Below are positions 480 through 29,479 of a DNA stretch of 34,117 bases, one piece after another (position 1 is the first letter of the stretch; every line of letters starts with the position of its first letter). A program made the position numbers and the translations under genes. The stretch comes from Bacteroidota bacterium (GTDB lineage: Bacteria > Bacteroidota > Ignavibacteria > UBA10030 > UBA8401), in contig JAVBYA010000057.1 in NCBI GenBank assembly GCA_030824295.1, forward strand, positions 1 through 34,117, written 5' to 3'. The notes under the pieces were generated by a model. That model worked only from the letters and a program-made list of their open reading frames with translations, ran no database searches and was not told where the DNA came from.

Positions 480-749
480 TTAGAGCGTCATACAGAGGAT
501 ACCAAATATTGCACACGCGGCGACTCCGAACCACGACAGCACCATCGTGAAGCAAAGAGTGGTGAAATGAATACATTCAACCGTTTCGACAGCATCCCCT
601 CCCCTGATACTCTGCATCTCGTCGGCGCTCAATGACACTCCCTGTTCGATCTGCACGTTCGCATCCATTGCCTGCGTCCGCGCGAGCGTTGTCTCGCCGA
701 CGAACAGCAGCCCAAGGAACAGCAAAAGAAATCCAAACGTCTTTTTCAT
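480..749 (-). CDS. Small secreted/membrane peptide precursor with Sec-like signal plus double-glycine leader (bacteriocin-like)
   Basis: 89 aa: MKKTFGFLLLFLGLLFVGETTLA...EQGVSLSADEMQSIRGG|DAVETVECIHFTTLCFTMVLSWFGVAACAIFGILCMTL. AAGGA Shine-Dalgarno-like sequence just upstream of ATG; canonical LSxxEMxxIxGG motif; adjacent C39 peptidase gene. Confidence 0.75.
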   Translation of the reverse strand: MKKTFGFLLLFLGLLFVGETTLARTQAMDANVQIEQGVSLSADEMQSIRGGDAVETVECIHFTTLCFTMVLSWFGVAACAIFGILCMTL

Positions 750-901
750 GGTTGTCCTTTTTGAAATAGTGATGAATGGGTTGTTTAGTCCCTCCTCACC
801 GCTGTCCGTCCGATGGTGTCATATCCGTGCGGGGTGCGGGGACAGGCCGCATCCAACACAGCTACGAGTGACCGCCGAACCGGTGAGTCAGGGTTGATTA
901 T

Positions 902-1474
902 TCAATGCCGGAAGATGAGCGTTTCACCGCTCCATCGTTCCTTGAACCGCGCTTCCGGGACCGCCAGACGGCCCACTCCGGGGTCGCGCAGATACACGGT
1001 GTGCCGGACGATACTGTCCACAACGACGAAATGGGATCGGTCGACGAACGCCAGCGCGGGGAGCGGTCCGGTGCGAAGATCATCAAAGGCGAGCTTCCAC
1101 CCTTCCGCATCCACTCCATACCGTTCTGCAGCATCCTTCAGCGCCAGCATCGACGCACCATCCTCCGTCAGCGGGATGCCGGATTCCAGTTCCTGCAATG
1201 GAACGTTCGTGCCGCGGCTTGATAACACCATCTTCAATGCGCTGGGGCCGCAGTTGTTCCGCGTAGTCTGCAGCACGACGCCGTCCCGCCCCAGATACTC
1301 CGTATCATTGAACAGCGACGTGAGTCGGATGTGGGAGCCGGGAACAGCGAGGAACCAGGCCCAGCCGACAGCGGCAAGAACGAAAAGAAATACTAAGAGA
1401 TGTTTCACGGTGATCCGGATCGGGGATGTTCTGTTCACGAATGCGCGGAGCTGTTTCTTCCCAATGTAATCCAT
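902..1474 (-). CDS. Stand-alone C39-family (bacteriocin-processing/double-glycine) peptidase with one N-terminal TM segment
   Basis: Start at MDYIGKKQ (minus-strand GAGGGGGGTG-ATG); TM ITVKHLLVFLFVLAAVGWAWFLAV; catalytic block VVLQTTRNNCGPSALKMVL (oxyanion Q six residues before Cys), SHFVVVD (His), LRDPGVG (Asp). The ORF-track start at 1576 lies in a terminator hairpin and is unlikely. Confidence 0.88.
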   Translation of the reverse strand: MDYIGKKQLRAFVNRTSPIRITVKHLLVFLFVLAAVGWAWFLAVPGSHIRLTSLFNDTEYLGRDGVVLQTTRNNCGPSALKMVLSSRGTNVPLQELESGIPLTEDGASMLALKDAAERYGVDAEGWKLAFDDLRTGPLPALAFVDRSHFVVVDSIVRHTVYLRDPGVGRLAVPEARFKERWSGETLIFRH

Positions 1475-1602: not shown

Positions 1603-3696
1603 TTACTTCAGTTTGAGCGTCGTGCGGGCCTTCGCCTTCTCCTCTTTCGTGAAGGCGGAGTATTCGAGCATCTGTTTGCCGAGGTCGAGCGGGTAGACGA
1701 CCTTCACATCGGTCACTTTGCCTTTGGCATCCGTCACCGGTTCCAGCTTCGGCATGACGAATCCCACGTACACGGCGCGGTCCAGTTTCTCCATGCGGGA
1801 CAATACTTCATCACGCAGTGCTGTGTCGATCTTGAATCCGTACGTATCGATGAGCGTCTTCGCCGCCGCCAGGTCCCCTTCGGATTTGATCCGCTGCACT
1901 TCCGCCAGCAGCCGTCCCACGCCGTCGCGCATCTTCTCGAAGCTCGTCACGCGGAAGTAGGTCTTCCCCTCCTTCGTTGTCCGTTCGATGCAGTCTGCAT
2001 TCTTCCAGAGCCAGTGGATGATCATCTGGCGGTTCTTCATATGGTCCTCTTCCAGCTGGTCTTGTCCTTTCGGTACACGCTGCAGCTGTACGAGCGCGGA
2101 GTTCCGCACCTCTTTGGTGTACATCGCCTTCACGATATCCATCGTGTTGGGGATGATGCCGATCTCGACGAGCTTCGGGTCCCAGATATGATAGAGCGCC
2201 ACAAGGTCGGCGCGCGCTTCCTCCAGCGTGGAGTAATAGCCGGGGAGGGCCGCCTGCGGATCGACCGTGAGGGAGGGCGAGACCTTGCCGGAGGCATGGC
2301 CGAGCACTTCGTGGAGCGCAGTGTGCATATTGTCCGCCAGTGAACCGTACTTCTCGGAGAGCATCATCTCTTCTTCGTCGTACGCGAACTCCTTCAGGAT
2401 ATCCTTCCCGCCGGTCTTCTCGTACGCATCGACGATATTGAAGAGCGTCACCGATTTACTGCCGTGCAGTTCGCGTACATCCTGTTCGTTCGGCAGATTG
2501 ATGCCGATGGCGCTGACCGGTCCGGCGTCGCCCGTCTCCACCACCACGTTAATGACGGTGTACTTCAGCGGTTTCACATCCGCTTTCCTGTACTTCGCAT
2601 CCCACGGCATGCGGTCCTCGAAGTACTGGGCGTTGGTCCCGACCTTCTGGAAGAGTTCCGTCAGTTCCGGATTGGCGAAATTCACGACCGATTCGAACTG
2701 TCCTTTGGCTCCGCGTGCATCCAGATAGACCTCGATGAAGCCGTGGATCATATCCACCTGCGACTCCGTCTCCTTCACCCAGCCGATGTTGTACTCGCGC
2801 CAGTCGTTCAGGTCCCCCGTGCGGTAGAAGGTGATGAGCTTATCGAGATTCGCTGCCTGGCGTTTGTTGGAAGCGTACGCTTTCGCCTTCTCCAGATAAC
2901 CGATCGCCACCTGCAGGTCCTCGGCATACATGCCGGCAGGGATCTTCCCGCCGAGATGTGTGTTGCCGGTGCGATAGACCTTTTCGACGATCGTTCCGTT
3001 CTCCTTCACCACTTTGGAATTGAGCGGGTTCTTCTCATTCCCGGCCTTCGCCCATGCATCCACTTCGGCGAATGTGACCCCTTCATAATTATTGTTGGCG
3101 CTGCCGGCGATCATATCCTCCCCCGGCGTCTTGTTGGTCTGTACCGGTTCGAATGATCTGTCGAAGATGGAACGGCGGAGACGATCCAATTTTTGATCGA
3201 TGGTCTCACCCCTGGTCAACGTGACCGATGCGCCGTTGAAGATGGCCGCTTTCACCGCAAGGGAGAATTGTTCCGGAGTGAAGAGCGGGACGAACTTGCG
3301 GGAGGTGATGTTGTCGTACTGCGAGTTGTTCACCCAGAAGAGTTTCGTATAGAGAACGAACTGCTCCATCACGGCAGGGTCGATCCCTTTGGGATGCGTG
3401 TACACCGCTTCGAGCAGCTCGCGGATCTCCAGTGCGTGACGGTGGCGCTGGTCCACCGCGATATCCCGCGCGGCGATGGCGGACTTGTACAGATAGTAGG
3501 TGAAGATCTTCTCCTTCGCGGAGAGCTTCTCGAATCCGTCCGCATAGAGCTGGACGATGCGCACCGGGCCGACGTCGCCCATCTGCAGTTTCTCGATCGT
3601 GTATTGTCGTTCCATAAGGTTCGGCTGGGTTGGTTTGTCCTTGTGCTGTGCGCTGAGTGCGGTGATCATGATCAGTGTGAGTATGAATGCTTTCAT
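1603..3696 (-). CDS. Dipeptidyl peptidase III-type zinc peptidase (family M49)
   Basis: 697 aa with signal peptide; HEVLGH zinc motif (M49 HExxxH) and downstream EEARADLVALYH. Confidence 0.93.
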   Translation of the reverse strand: MKAFILTLIMITALSAQHKDKPTQPNLMERQYTIEKLQMGDVGPVRIVQLYADGFEKLSAKEKIFTYYLYKSAIAARDIAVDQRHRHALEIRELLEAVYTHPKGIDPAVMEQFVLYTKLFWVNNSQYDNITSRKFVPLFTPEQFSLAVKAAIFNGASVTLTRGETIDQKLDRLRRSIFDRSFEPVQTNKTPGEDMIAGSANNNYEGVTFAEVDAWAKAGNEKNPLNSKVVKENGTIVEKVYRTGNTHLGGKIPAGMYAEDLQVAIGYLEKAKAYASNKRQAANLDKLITFYRTGDLNDWREYNIGWVKETESQVDMIHGFIEVYLDARGAKGQFESVVNFANPELTELFQKVGTNAQYFEDRMPWDAKYRKADVKPLKYTVINVVVETGDAGPVSAIGINLPNEQDVRELHGSKSVTLFNIVDAYEKTGGKDILKEFAYDEEEMMLSEKYGSLADNMHTALHEVLGHASGKVSPSLTVDPQAALPGYYSTLEEARADLVALYHIWDPKLVEIGIIPNTMDIVKAMYTKEVRNSALVQLQRVPKGQDQLEEDHMKNRQMIIHWLWKNADCIERTTKEGKTYFRVTSFEKMRDGVGRLLAEVQRIKSEGDLAAAKTLIDTYGFKIDTALRDEVLSRMEKLDRAVYVGFVMPKLEPVTDAKGKVTDVKVVYPLDLGKQMLEYSAFTKEEKAKARTTLKLK

Positions 3697-27088: not shown

Positions 27089-29479
27089 TTATTTCATCAA
27101 GATCATGCGTTTCGTCTGCGTCCATGCACCGGCACGCAGAGAATAGAGATAGACGCCGCTGGAGAGCCCGTACTGCGCCGCCGAGAAGCGGAGGCGGTGT
27201 GCTCCCTCCTGCAATTCCCCCTCGTTCAGCCGTGCCACTTCCTTGCCGAGCAAGTCAGTCACGGTGAGCGTGACCGCACTCCGTTGCGGAAGCGTGAAGC
27301 GGATCTCGGTGGCAGGATTGAACGGATTGGGATAATTCTGTTCCAGTGTGAATGCCGTCGGTTGGGACGATGTCGGCCCGACTGTAAGCGGAGAGCCGGC
27401 ATAGGTCCACCGCACAGCATCGAAGATCACTGCTTGCTTCAGTGTATCGCTTCCATCGCCGAGGCGGACGGATGACGCCGTACCGGCAGCGAAGGAGAAC
27501 GTACCCAGAGGCGCCCAGGCATTCTTAAATTTCTTCTGATCGATGACCACGGTATGTGCACCGTCCTGCGCGTTCACTACATAGCGTGCTTTCGTAGCAT
27601 CGCTGACCGGGATATATGCTTCCACACTGTACTCTCCCGGCTTCGGAAGGGACGGAGTCCAGACCGCATAACAGGTATCGCTCATCTTGGTGCGGGTCCA
27701 CCAGAAATGGTTGTTCATCAAACCGCCCGCTTTCCGGTCCGACCAGCGCGTCAGCGATGAAGGAGCCGCGGTGCTCATAAAGAACCCTTTTCCCAGATGC
27801 ATATCGTCCACGAGCGTATCGGCCCGTGCGATCTTCGGGTAGCGGACGCTCACCCCCCAGTAGATGCGGTTCAGATTCCTGTAGCCGTTGTTGTATCCCA
27901 CCCAGTCGTACTTCACTCCCTTGCCGTTCAGACTCGGATACGTTCCGGTGTTCTTATTGCCGTACGGATCGTTCACGATGAGCGTGCGGTTGTTCACATC
28001 GTATCCGTTCACCGCAATGATATGTCCGGCGGTCGTCAGACCGTTGCAGAGTGTGAACGGATATCCGGAATCGACATTCGCGATGACCGTGGTGAAGAAT
28101 GAAGCGCTGGAATCGAAACGCGATGCCGTCATACCGTGATTGGTGTAATAATCGACCGTGCGCGAATACGGACTGAAACTGCCGGTCCACATAAAGCCGT
28201 ATCCGCCGTACGACGGTTTGCCGTTCGGATCCTCAGCCGTGAGGGCATACGCATACTCACGGTAGGTGTAACTCTCGCAAATGTAATTACCGTACGGACT
28301 GTAATGCCCGGGTGACGAACCGGAGGGTGAACACCAGACATTCCACGTCGGCACGATGTTGAAATAGGCAATGACCATGATCGAAGAGGTCGCTCCGCAG
28401 GCGGAGTGTCCGTTGTACCAATCGGGCGTATCCCATACCTGATGGACGTACGGCATTTCAAAATAGACTGCTGCTGCGGTGGACGGAGCATCGGGTGTGA
28501 TCGTGTTGTAGGGACGGGGTGTATTCAGGAACGAACGGTCGCCGGATGCAAGCTGTTGTTCGGCGCCGGCAGTAGACCTTACATACAAGCCGCCGCGCAG
28601 ATCATCAGAATAGAGGATCGTTCCCCGTTTCACATCACACCACGGTTCGGATTCGAATCGGTCACTCGTCGCCGTAAGCTGACGCCGCTGCGTGCCGTTG
28701 CTGGAGATACTAAAGAGCTCCGCTGCGGTCAGCGTTTCCCGCTCGAAACTCCGCTGCACATAGACGACGGTCGACGCATCCATCCAGGAGGGAGAATCAC
28801 CATCGCCAAGAAGAACCGTCATCTTTGCGGTCAAGGAATAGACATACATCGCCCCGCTCAAACGGGAATAGAGGATCTTGGAACCGTCCGGAGACCATTG
28901 CGGCAGTCCGTAACTTCCTGCACCGTCCGTGATCCGTTCCTTGTTGGCCGTTGTCAGATCGAGCACCCATAGCTGATCTGCATCATCATTATAGACAACG
29001 GACTTCCCGTCCGGCGAGATGGGAGCGATATTGGCATACGTTCCGAGCTCATAGCGCCGTTCCGCTTCTTCACCGCGAATGATGAGTTGCTCACCATTGG
29101 TGAAAGCAGCCGTTCCGTCATCGGCAAAGCTGATCTGTCCGACACGGGACGACAGCGTTGTGCGTGCAACAGCAGTACGCTTCAGCAGATCATACATGAC
29201 TGCGGACTGCGCACCATTCTCATTCACTTCTTTGAAACCGGCGTAGCGGCCATCCGGCGAGACGGAATAGTACATGCCACTTCCCGGCATGCGCGAGATC
29301 GTCTCAACACCGCTTGCGGTGAGCAGGAACAATCCGTCGCTCAGCCCGTCCGCGAACAGCACACCCGCAGCGCTCGCGCGCGGCGCGCGGAACGAACGGT
29401 CCGTCTCCTCTGCTGCCGTACCGAGAACGGACAGCAGCATCAGCAGAACGAACGGATGATATGATGCGCGGCGGGACAT
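27089..29479 (-). CDS. T9SS-secreted protein: WD40/TolB-like propeller, C39-like peptidase domain, golvesin-like CBD, T9SS sorting domain
   Basis: YSVSPDGRYAGFKEV, QWSPDGSKILYSR (propeller); VHQVWDTPDWYNGHSACGATSSIMVIAYF with AGHIIAVNGYD and IVNDPYGNK (C39_2-like); DTCYAVWTPSLPKPGEYSVEAYIP (golvesin-like); LEQNYPNPFNPATEIRFTLPQ...KRMILMK. Confidence 0.85.
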   Translation of the reverse strand: MSRRASYHPFVLLMLLSVLGTAAEETDRSFRAPRASAAGVLFADGLSDGLFLLTASGVETISRMPGSGMYYSVSPDGRYAGFKEVNENGAQSAVMYDLLKRTAVARTTLSSRVGQISFADDGTAAFTNGEQLIIRGEEAERRYELGTYANIAPISPDGKSVVYNDDADQLWVLDLTTANKERITDGAGSYGLPQWSPDGSKILYSRLSGAMYVYSLTAKMTVLLGDGDSPSWMDASTVVYVQRSFERETLTAAELFSISSNGTQRRQLTATSDRFESEPWCDVKRGTILYSDDLRGGLYVRSTAGAEQQLASGDRSFLNTPRPYNTITPDAPSTAAAVYFEMPYVHQVWDTPDWYNGHSACGATSSIMVIAYFNIVPTWNVWCSPSGSSPGHYSPYGNYICESYTYREYAYALTAEDPNGKPSYGGYGFMWTGSFSPYSRTVDYYTNHGMTASRFDSSASFFTTVIANVDSGYPFTLCNGLTTAGHIIAVNGYDVNNRTLIVNDPYGNKNTGTYPSLNGKGVKYDWVGYNNGYRNLNRIYWGVSVRYPKIARADTLVDDMHLGKGFFMSTAAPSSLTRWSDRKAGGLMNNHFWWTRTKMSDTCYAVWTPSLPKPGEYSVEAYIPVSDATKARYVVNAQDGAHTVVIDQKKFKNAWAPLGTFSFAAGTASSVRLGDGSDTLKQAVIFDAVRWTYAGSPLTVGPTSSQPTAFTLEQNYPNPFNPATEIRFTLPQRSAVTLTVTDLLGKEVARLNEGELQEGAHRLRFSAAQYGLSSGVYLYSLRAGAWTQTKRMILMK

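Follow-up and report, generated by a model that had tools for sequence, protein, structure and literature searches.

In the well-studied cases, double-glycine (GG) leaders are removed by a C39 domain that is fused to the peptide's own ATP-binding cassette (ABC) exporter. How, then, would such a leader be removed when the C39 peptidase has no transporter attached and the peptide itself starts with a Sec-type signal? This question is raised by two minus-strand genes near one end of a 34,117-nucleotide contig of an Ignavibacteria bacterium (JAVBYA010000057.1). The contig, called the window here, is the entire contig G000:C441 of a 3.4 Mb assembly with 508 contigs and 90% completeness. One gene encodes an orphan, membrane-anchored C39 peptidase and the other, 152 bases away, a small precursor peptide. 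A first-pass annotation had proposed Sec export of the peptide followed by GG cleavage by the orphan enzyme. The analysis supports this interpretation and suggests that the pair belongs to a system that matures Sec-routed peptides, the product most likely being a gallocin-like bacteriocin, a reading to which we give a probability of roughly 0.68.

The orphan peptidase and its neighbouring precursor

Is the peptidase complete, and on which side of the membrane does it lie? The protein matches Pfam PF03412 over a nearly complete domain (E 6e-29; 101 bits against a cut-off of 22), and in an alignment of 28 relatives Gln69, Cys75 and His148 are invariant and Asp164 is kept in at least 90%. One N-terminal helix (residues about 18–43) precedes the domain, and a Pfam search of the protein found no transporter domain and no ATPase domain. 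The first-pass description of a complete C39 enzyme with its Gln, Cys, His and Asp, a single transmembrane segment and neither ABC nor ATPase parts therefore holds. An AlphaFold2 (AF2) model built from 28 orphan relatives shows the helix at 18–43 followed by the C39 fold, with a predicted local distance difference test score (pLDDT) of 92. Its top Foldseek match is 6mpz (TM-score 0.85 on the target, root-mean-square deviation 1.0, 30% identity), a double-glycine protease (C39) domain solved together with a leader peptide, which is also the top profile match among solved structures (1e-28). Of the 28 orphans, 27 have a net positive charge in the flank ahead of the helix, which predicts a peptidase domain on the periplasmic side; L124, the remaining one, carries a lipobox. 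When 35 orphan C39 domains and 17 from transporter fusions were placed in a maximum-likelihood tree, the orphans fell on one side of a branch with support 98/92. In a plasmid search, most of the best 15 matches either were NHLP C39-ABC transporters or lacked annotation, and none of the records spanned 80% of the query.

What would this enzyme cut? Downstream on the same strand lies the 89-aa precursor, read from a Shine-Dalgarno-like AAGGA, whose hydropathy and TLA site after residue 23 mark it as a Sec substrate. A canonical GG leader follows the signal, as the first-pass annotation had noted. It ends in LSADEMQSIRGG, fits the double-glycine leader motif LSX2ELX2IXGG (PMC3897388) and is hydrophobic at −12, −7 and −4, the positions that the C39 domain of LahT reads (PMC10885120). 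The core was absent from that annotation as a four-cysteine predicted hairpin: it has 38 aa, is hydrophobic and contains four Cys, and AF2 places helices at 51–69 and 73–88 (core pLDDT about 80) and a leader helix at 42–49. Is this a known bacteriocin? No precursor matched a described family, with no Pfam hit above cut-off and all NCBIfam matches below theirs. Matches of the window peptide to ComC and lichenicidin were rejected (17 bits, far under the cut-off), and the JUQZ-1/BLB8 family matches of other precursors are weak and span signal and leader only.

Pairing across genomes and the wider cluster

Could the two genes have come together by chance? A C39-domain scan of 296 genomes of the class returned as its strongest matches about 20 short orphan proteins and, below them, mostly transporter-fused proteins of at least 700 aa; homologues without ABC domains, for which the first-pass annotation had suggested a search, do occur in relatives. 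Within the order (98 genomes searched), 19 genomes carry an orphan C39, a count that leaves out two weak, unrelated matches (G006 and G030), set aside as short proteins in unrelated settings (L156, L157). In 18 of the 19, a short open reading frame (ORF) close downstream on the same strand combines a Sec-like start with a leader of the GG, GA, GS or AG type; only G044 lacks one. Within 2.6 kb downstream of 18 orphan C39s, 19 of 134 ORFs are short ones that have a Sec-like start and the double-glycine-type (DG) motif, versus 8 of 1447 in the rest of the same loci (Fisher 1.6e-15), a figure to be read knowing that the loci are not independent and that the motif was set after several members had been seen. 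Clear GG peptides beside transporter-fused C39 domains (L094, L102) have no Sec signal. The reverse search gives a similar picture. A profile of eight precursors, seven found through a nearby C39 and one through a nearby MauE, matches 12 of the 98 genomes, and 11 of these have an orphan C39, the twelfth being G002. Among the matches independent of the training set, those of G228, G017, G009 and both G053 loci stand beside a C39 and that of G002 does not. On these sequence comparisons the pairing is real, not chance, and a fortuitous GG motif is likewise rejected by conservation and enrichment. At the orphan C39 of G431 (L191) no precursor was recognised. Related clusters occur in Acidobacteriota, and another family of the phylum has a divergent version (L190, G389:C11) with redoxin-like, MauE, two precursor, C39, Yip1 and ABC genes.

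Each precursor consists of a signal, then, past the likely signal-peptidase site, a leader of about 18–49 residues, and finally a core. The leader is hydrophobic at −12 in 30 of 34 precursors and at −7 in 28. Between the window precursor and seven relatives (20–35% identity), the only invariant columns are Met1, the GG and the four cysteines; conservation of the GG in aligned peptides had been one of the checks proposed at the outset. The cysteine spacing of these eight twin-cysteine precursors is symmetrical, with CX6C or CX10C in both halves: 6-12-6 in the window and L043, 6-13-6 in the precursor of contig C296, 6-9-6 in L128, 6-8-6 in L127, and 10-9-10 in L042, L155 and L123. Residues i and i+7 or i+11 lie on one face of a helix. 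Because the cysteines so spaced share a helix face and AF2 models two helices, the twin-cysteine core is probably a disulfide-stapled helical hairpin with nested disulfides. Several Ignavibacteria have another core type, CCxDLW-like; a CC(C)xDLWxF-like motif is seen in clusters L122, L151, L048, L053, L109, L126, L153, L154 and L159. Acidobacteriota cores are two-Cys and Gly/Ala-rich, often with two to four precursors per cluster. In L057–L078 of that phylum, adjacent precursors of this kind resemble two-peptide bacteriocins, and these clusters also hold an ABC ATPase and a membrane protein of about 530–560 aa without a Pfam family.

Is the system a two-gene cassette, as first described? The window does hold only the C39 and the precursor of the cluster genes, but most relatives have a larger cluster: a redoxin, the C39, one or more peptides, a secreted protein of about 170 aa or an ABC module, Yip1 and sometimes MauE. 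Neighbours were counted with models built here over 51 loci, of which 50 have an orphan C39 and the other is C296; those from Acidobacteriota are close relatives of one another. A redoxin (AhpC-TSA/Redoxin) is present in 46, Yip1 in 43, an ABC ATPase in 27, the secreted protein in 15 and MauE in 12. No locus has both the secreted protein and the ABC module (15 versus 27 loci). The former is a family found in L122, L127, L128, L159 and 11 further loci; its tested members have no Pfam match, two of them also no NCBIfam match, and it is a candidate for an immunity factor or a partner. MauE may, by one published speculation, assist disulfide formation (PMC7794033).

Where, then, are the accessory genes of this genome? 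They lie with a second precursor (twin CX6C) on contig C296, which has a redoxin, the secreted protein, Yip1 and MauE, and no C39. Clusters with a precursor and without C39 were seen at G000:C296 (L189:4488-7231) and G002:C104 (L227:4100-7651); both have redoxin, the ~170-aa secreted protein and Yip1, both come after tandem AraC-type helix-turn-helix (HTH) genes, and MauE was seen in C296. A join of the window to C296 by matching contig ends was rejected: the end of C296 instead shares an exact 47-base overlap with that of C75, which carries tandem AraC-type regulators and an agmatine-deiminase-like gene, and the first 130 bp of the window match no other contig of the assembly beyond short chance matches. 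The two loci are thus not shown to be adjacent. G002 has a similar order of HTH genes and redoxin on one contig. Strong matches to the precursor profile in the assembly are the window and C296 precursors only. Since the window C39 is the sole PF03412 protein above the cut-off there, on the simplest reading it probably serves both in trans; a second C39 may lie in the missing tenth of the genome. The C296 precursor and its G002 ortholog differ at 14 first, 6 second and 27 third codon positions, with a nonsynonymous rate (dN) of 0.13 and a synonymous rate (dS) of 0.54, which argues that the second precursor is under purifying selection.

A proposed maturation route and its competitors

How might the peptide be matured? 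The precursor would pass the inner membrane via Sec, and signal peptidase would take off residues 1–23. In the periplasm the core would fold, presumably before cleavage, into a two-helix hairpin with two disulfides (C59–C86 and C66–C79), helped by the clustered redoxin in most relatives and by MauE in some. The outward-facing C39 would bind the helical leader through the side chains at −4, −7 and −12 and cut after Gly51, freeing a 38-aa hydrophobic peptide that would cross the outer membrane and act on competitors' membranes. The window enzyme would process the window and C296 precursors alike. Immunity, which we infer, may lie with Yip1, the secreted protein or the ABC module, all of them candidates. 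Sec export with periplasmic GG cleavage would account for the signal, the outward-facing protease, the leader grammar and the many clusters without ABC genes. The route draws on the pairing, the topology, the leader grammar, the cysteine conservation and the single C39 of the assembly, each supported by sequence. On balance we also favour a broader proposal: secreted peptides of a new class, spread across phyla, whose GG leaders would be processed independently of ABC export. Their tripartite precursors (Sec signal, C39 leader and disulfide-stapled core, with twin CX6C or CX10C hairpins in the group of the window) would be exported by Sec, oxidised by a MauD/MauE-like pair and then cut by a dedicated, outward-facing C39 able to act in trans on several of them.

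Does the system belong to something already described? With the PCAT/AMS exporters (LahT, PCAT1, ComA; NHLM_micro_ABC1, TIGR03796) it shares the C39 fold, the catalytic residues and the leader grammar (−4, −7, −12, GG). However, the window C39 is a 190-aa, single-helix protein without an ABC transmembrane or ATPase domain (85 bits with TIGR03796 against a cut-off of 853), its putative substrate has a Sec signal, and the orphans stand apart in the tree. The nearest precedent is FapD, from the Fap amyloid system of Pseudomonas: this periplasmic C39 requires its catalytic Cys to support secretion, and its target is unclear (PMC5557850, PMC6173800). It too is a stand-alone extracytoplasmic C39, needed for secretion of Sec-exported proteins, but it has a Sec signal peptide where the window protease is membrane-anchored. 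Fap proteins lack canonical GG leaders, whereas the neighbour of the window C39 has one and a small predicted hairpin core, and the cluster content is not that of Fap. The window C39 scores 31.9 bits with the FapD model (NF058616, cut-off 330) and 33.3 bits with that of FilB (NF050078, cut-off 475). Gallocin A, a hairpin that is cleaved after GG, depends on a disulfide and on an extracellular thioredoxin (PMC10100652). Class IIb bacteriocins of its type share the GG leader, the hydrophobic, disulfide-stapled α-helical hairpin core (predicted here), a thioredoxin-like extracytoplasmic helper and, in Acidobacteriota clusters, adjacent two-Cys peptides. Gallocin, however, is exported and cut by BlpAB, where Sec and an orphan C39 would do so here, and the window core, from a Gram-negative-type lineage, contains four Cys (twin CX6C). 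Yip1 and ABC genes are known from leaderless and circular bacteriocin clusters, where Yip1, an ABC ATPase and a permease adjoin a small peptide as they do here; yet bawcin is leaderless and its listed cluster has no C39, redoxin or MauE (PMC10707071). Candidate clusters of ribosomally made peptides from decRiPPter have MauE (MauD in one family) beside candidate precursors, but they are from Streptomyces and the paper's text does not mention C39 (PMC7794033). Because none of these memberships held, the system appears to be a variant of GG-leader peptide systems and not FapD, PCAT or a described bacteriocin family. Searches of the open-access literature found no description of the pairing of an orphan C39 with Sec-GG precursors and no report of the cleavage itself.

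Several points weigh against the proposed route. Most cores carry no net charge or a negative one, in contrast to cationic bacteriocins. G044 (L124) has a related C39 and no precursor beside it; conversely, no C39 was found for the precursor cluster of G002, whose M49-gene contig ends 131 bp past that gene. The precursor model is weak overall (pLDDT 68, predicted TM-score 0.36), the GG sites of the 34 curated precursors were chosen by eye, Sec signals were judged by hydropathy and not by SignalP, and Yip1 calls in GC-rich Acidobacteriota are partly doubtful. Might the same Sec and C39 steps instead yield a pheromone-type signalling peptide or a small protein that stays in the envelope? We consider this unlikely, although C39 also processes ComC-type pheromones (PMC10885120), the C296 cluster and its G002 sister adjoin tandem AraC-like regulators, and some of the very hydrophobic cores could remain in the inner membrane. 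Core diversity, several precursors per cluster, the Yip1 and ABC modules, and presence or absence between close relatives all suit competition better.

The remaining explanations change the role of the protease or its side of the membrane. In a FapD-like or FilB-like assembly the C39 would trim a secreted fibre or pilus subunit, and the peptide would be a structural subunit or regulator. This seems very improbable given scores so far below both cut-offs and cores without amyloid-type repeats. No fapF-like, fapC or pilus genes were seen by eye near the loci, no Fap-specific models being run. What speaks for it is that FapD is a periplasmic C39 required for secretion (PMC5557850), that all 28 orphans match its model weakly, and that a predicted outer-membrane DUF5686 protein lies in or beside the cluster of three genomes. 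Slighter still is the chance that the hydrophobic N-terminus is a membrane anchor only, the C39 cytoplasmic and the peptide exported by an unlinked ABC transporter. Once excised, C39 domains still cleave GG leaders in solution (PMC10885120), and some clusters include an ABC ATPase and permease; but positive-inside N-termini and the lipoprotein C39 place the domain outside, ABC genes are absent wherever a cluster includes the ~170-aa secreted protein, and the window genome is without a C39-ABC fusion.

What would a Sec-routed, bacteriocin-like system mean for GG-leader processing? A natural orphan C39 here lies beside a short, canonical putative substrate, while FapD, the one studied periplasmic C39, has no known substrate; extracytoplasmic C39 cleavage therefore becomes testable with two genes. 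The clusters point to a class of bacteriocin-like peptides among uncultured Ignavibacteria and Acidobacteriota, one that would be missed by searches keyed to C39-ABC transporters, and suggest that GG-peptide maturation in two-membrane bacteria need not be tied to ABC export.

The locus and its surroundings

Positions of the pair, its catalytic residues and its neighbours in the window
Feature	Positions	Strand	Evidence
Orphan membrane-anchored C39 peptidase gene, 190 aa	902-1474	-	PF03412, conserved columns, AF2, Foldseek, positive N-flank
Gln69	1268-1270	-
Catalytic Cys75	1250-1252	-
Catalytic His148	1031-1033	-
Catalytic Asp164	983-985	-
Tripartite precursor peptide, 89 aa (signal, GG leader, core)	480-749	-	Sequence, alignment, profile matches
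Sec-type signal, residues 1-23, MKKTFGFLLLFLGLLFVGETTLA	681-749	-	Hydropathy and TLA site
C39 leader, residues 24-51, ends LSADEMQSIRGG	597-680	-	Sequence; motif and position rule; helix 42-49 in model
Predicted mature core, 38 aa, Cys spacing 6-12-6, helical hairpin	483-596	-	Alignment and AF2 model
Terminator-like stem-loop 3' of precursor, 8 pairs	427-448	no strand assigned	Hairpin search
Terminator-like hairpin between M49 peptidase gene and cassette, 14 pairs, T-rich tail	1548-1579	-
M49 peptidase gene, upstream of pair	1603-3696		PF03571
Start of CarboxypepD_reg/DUF5686-type protein, predicted outer-membrane, cut by contig end	3-413	-	PF13715

Where does the C39 gene begin? The start was placed at ATG 1474, which has AGAGGGGGG ahead of it; a start at 1576 was rejected because it would overlap the terminator-like hairpin of the upstream gene. 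With this hairpin before the pair and the smaller stem-loop after it, the two genes look by their anatomy like a separate transcription unit. The truncated DUF5686-type protein may be a cluster member, since its homologues, which carry PF18939, lie inside the cluster in two genomes, after the precursor in G015 (L128) and after MauE in G007 (L228). On the other side, the M49-gene site is variable, judging by two relatives: in G004, of the same genus, a complete cluster adjoins the same M49 gene, and in G006 (L188, G006:C36:73000-83237) the site holds other, unrelated accessory genes, possibly restriction-like by eye, followed by the shared YeeE/YedE-like flank. Further along the window, a minus-strand protein at 27089-29479 combines PD40, Peptidase_C39_2, Golvesin_C and Por_Secre_tail domains; it is unrelated to the orphan C39 and is probably secreted by the type IX system.
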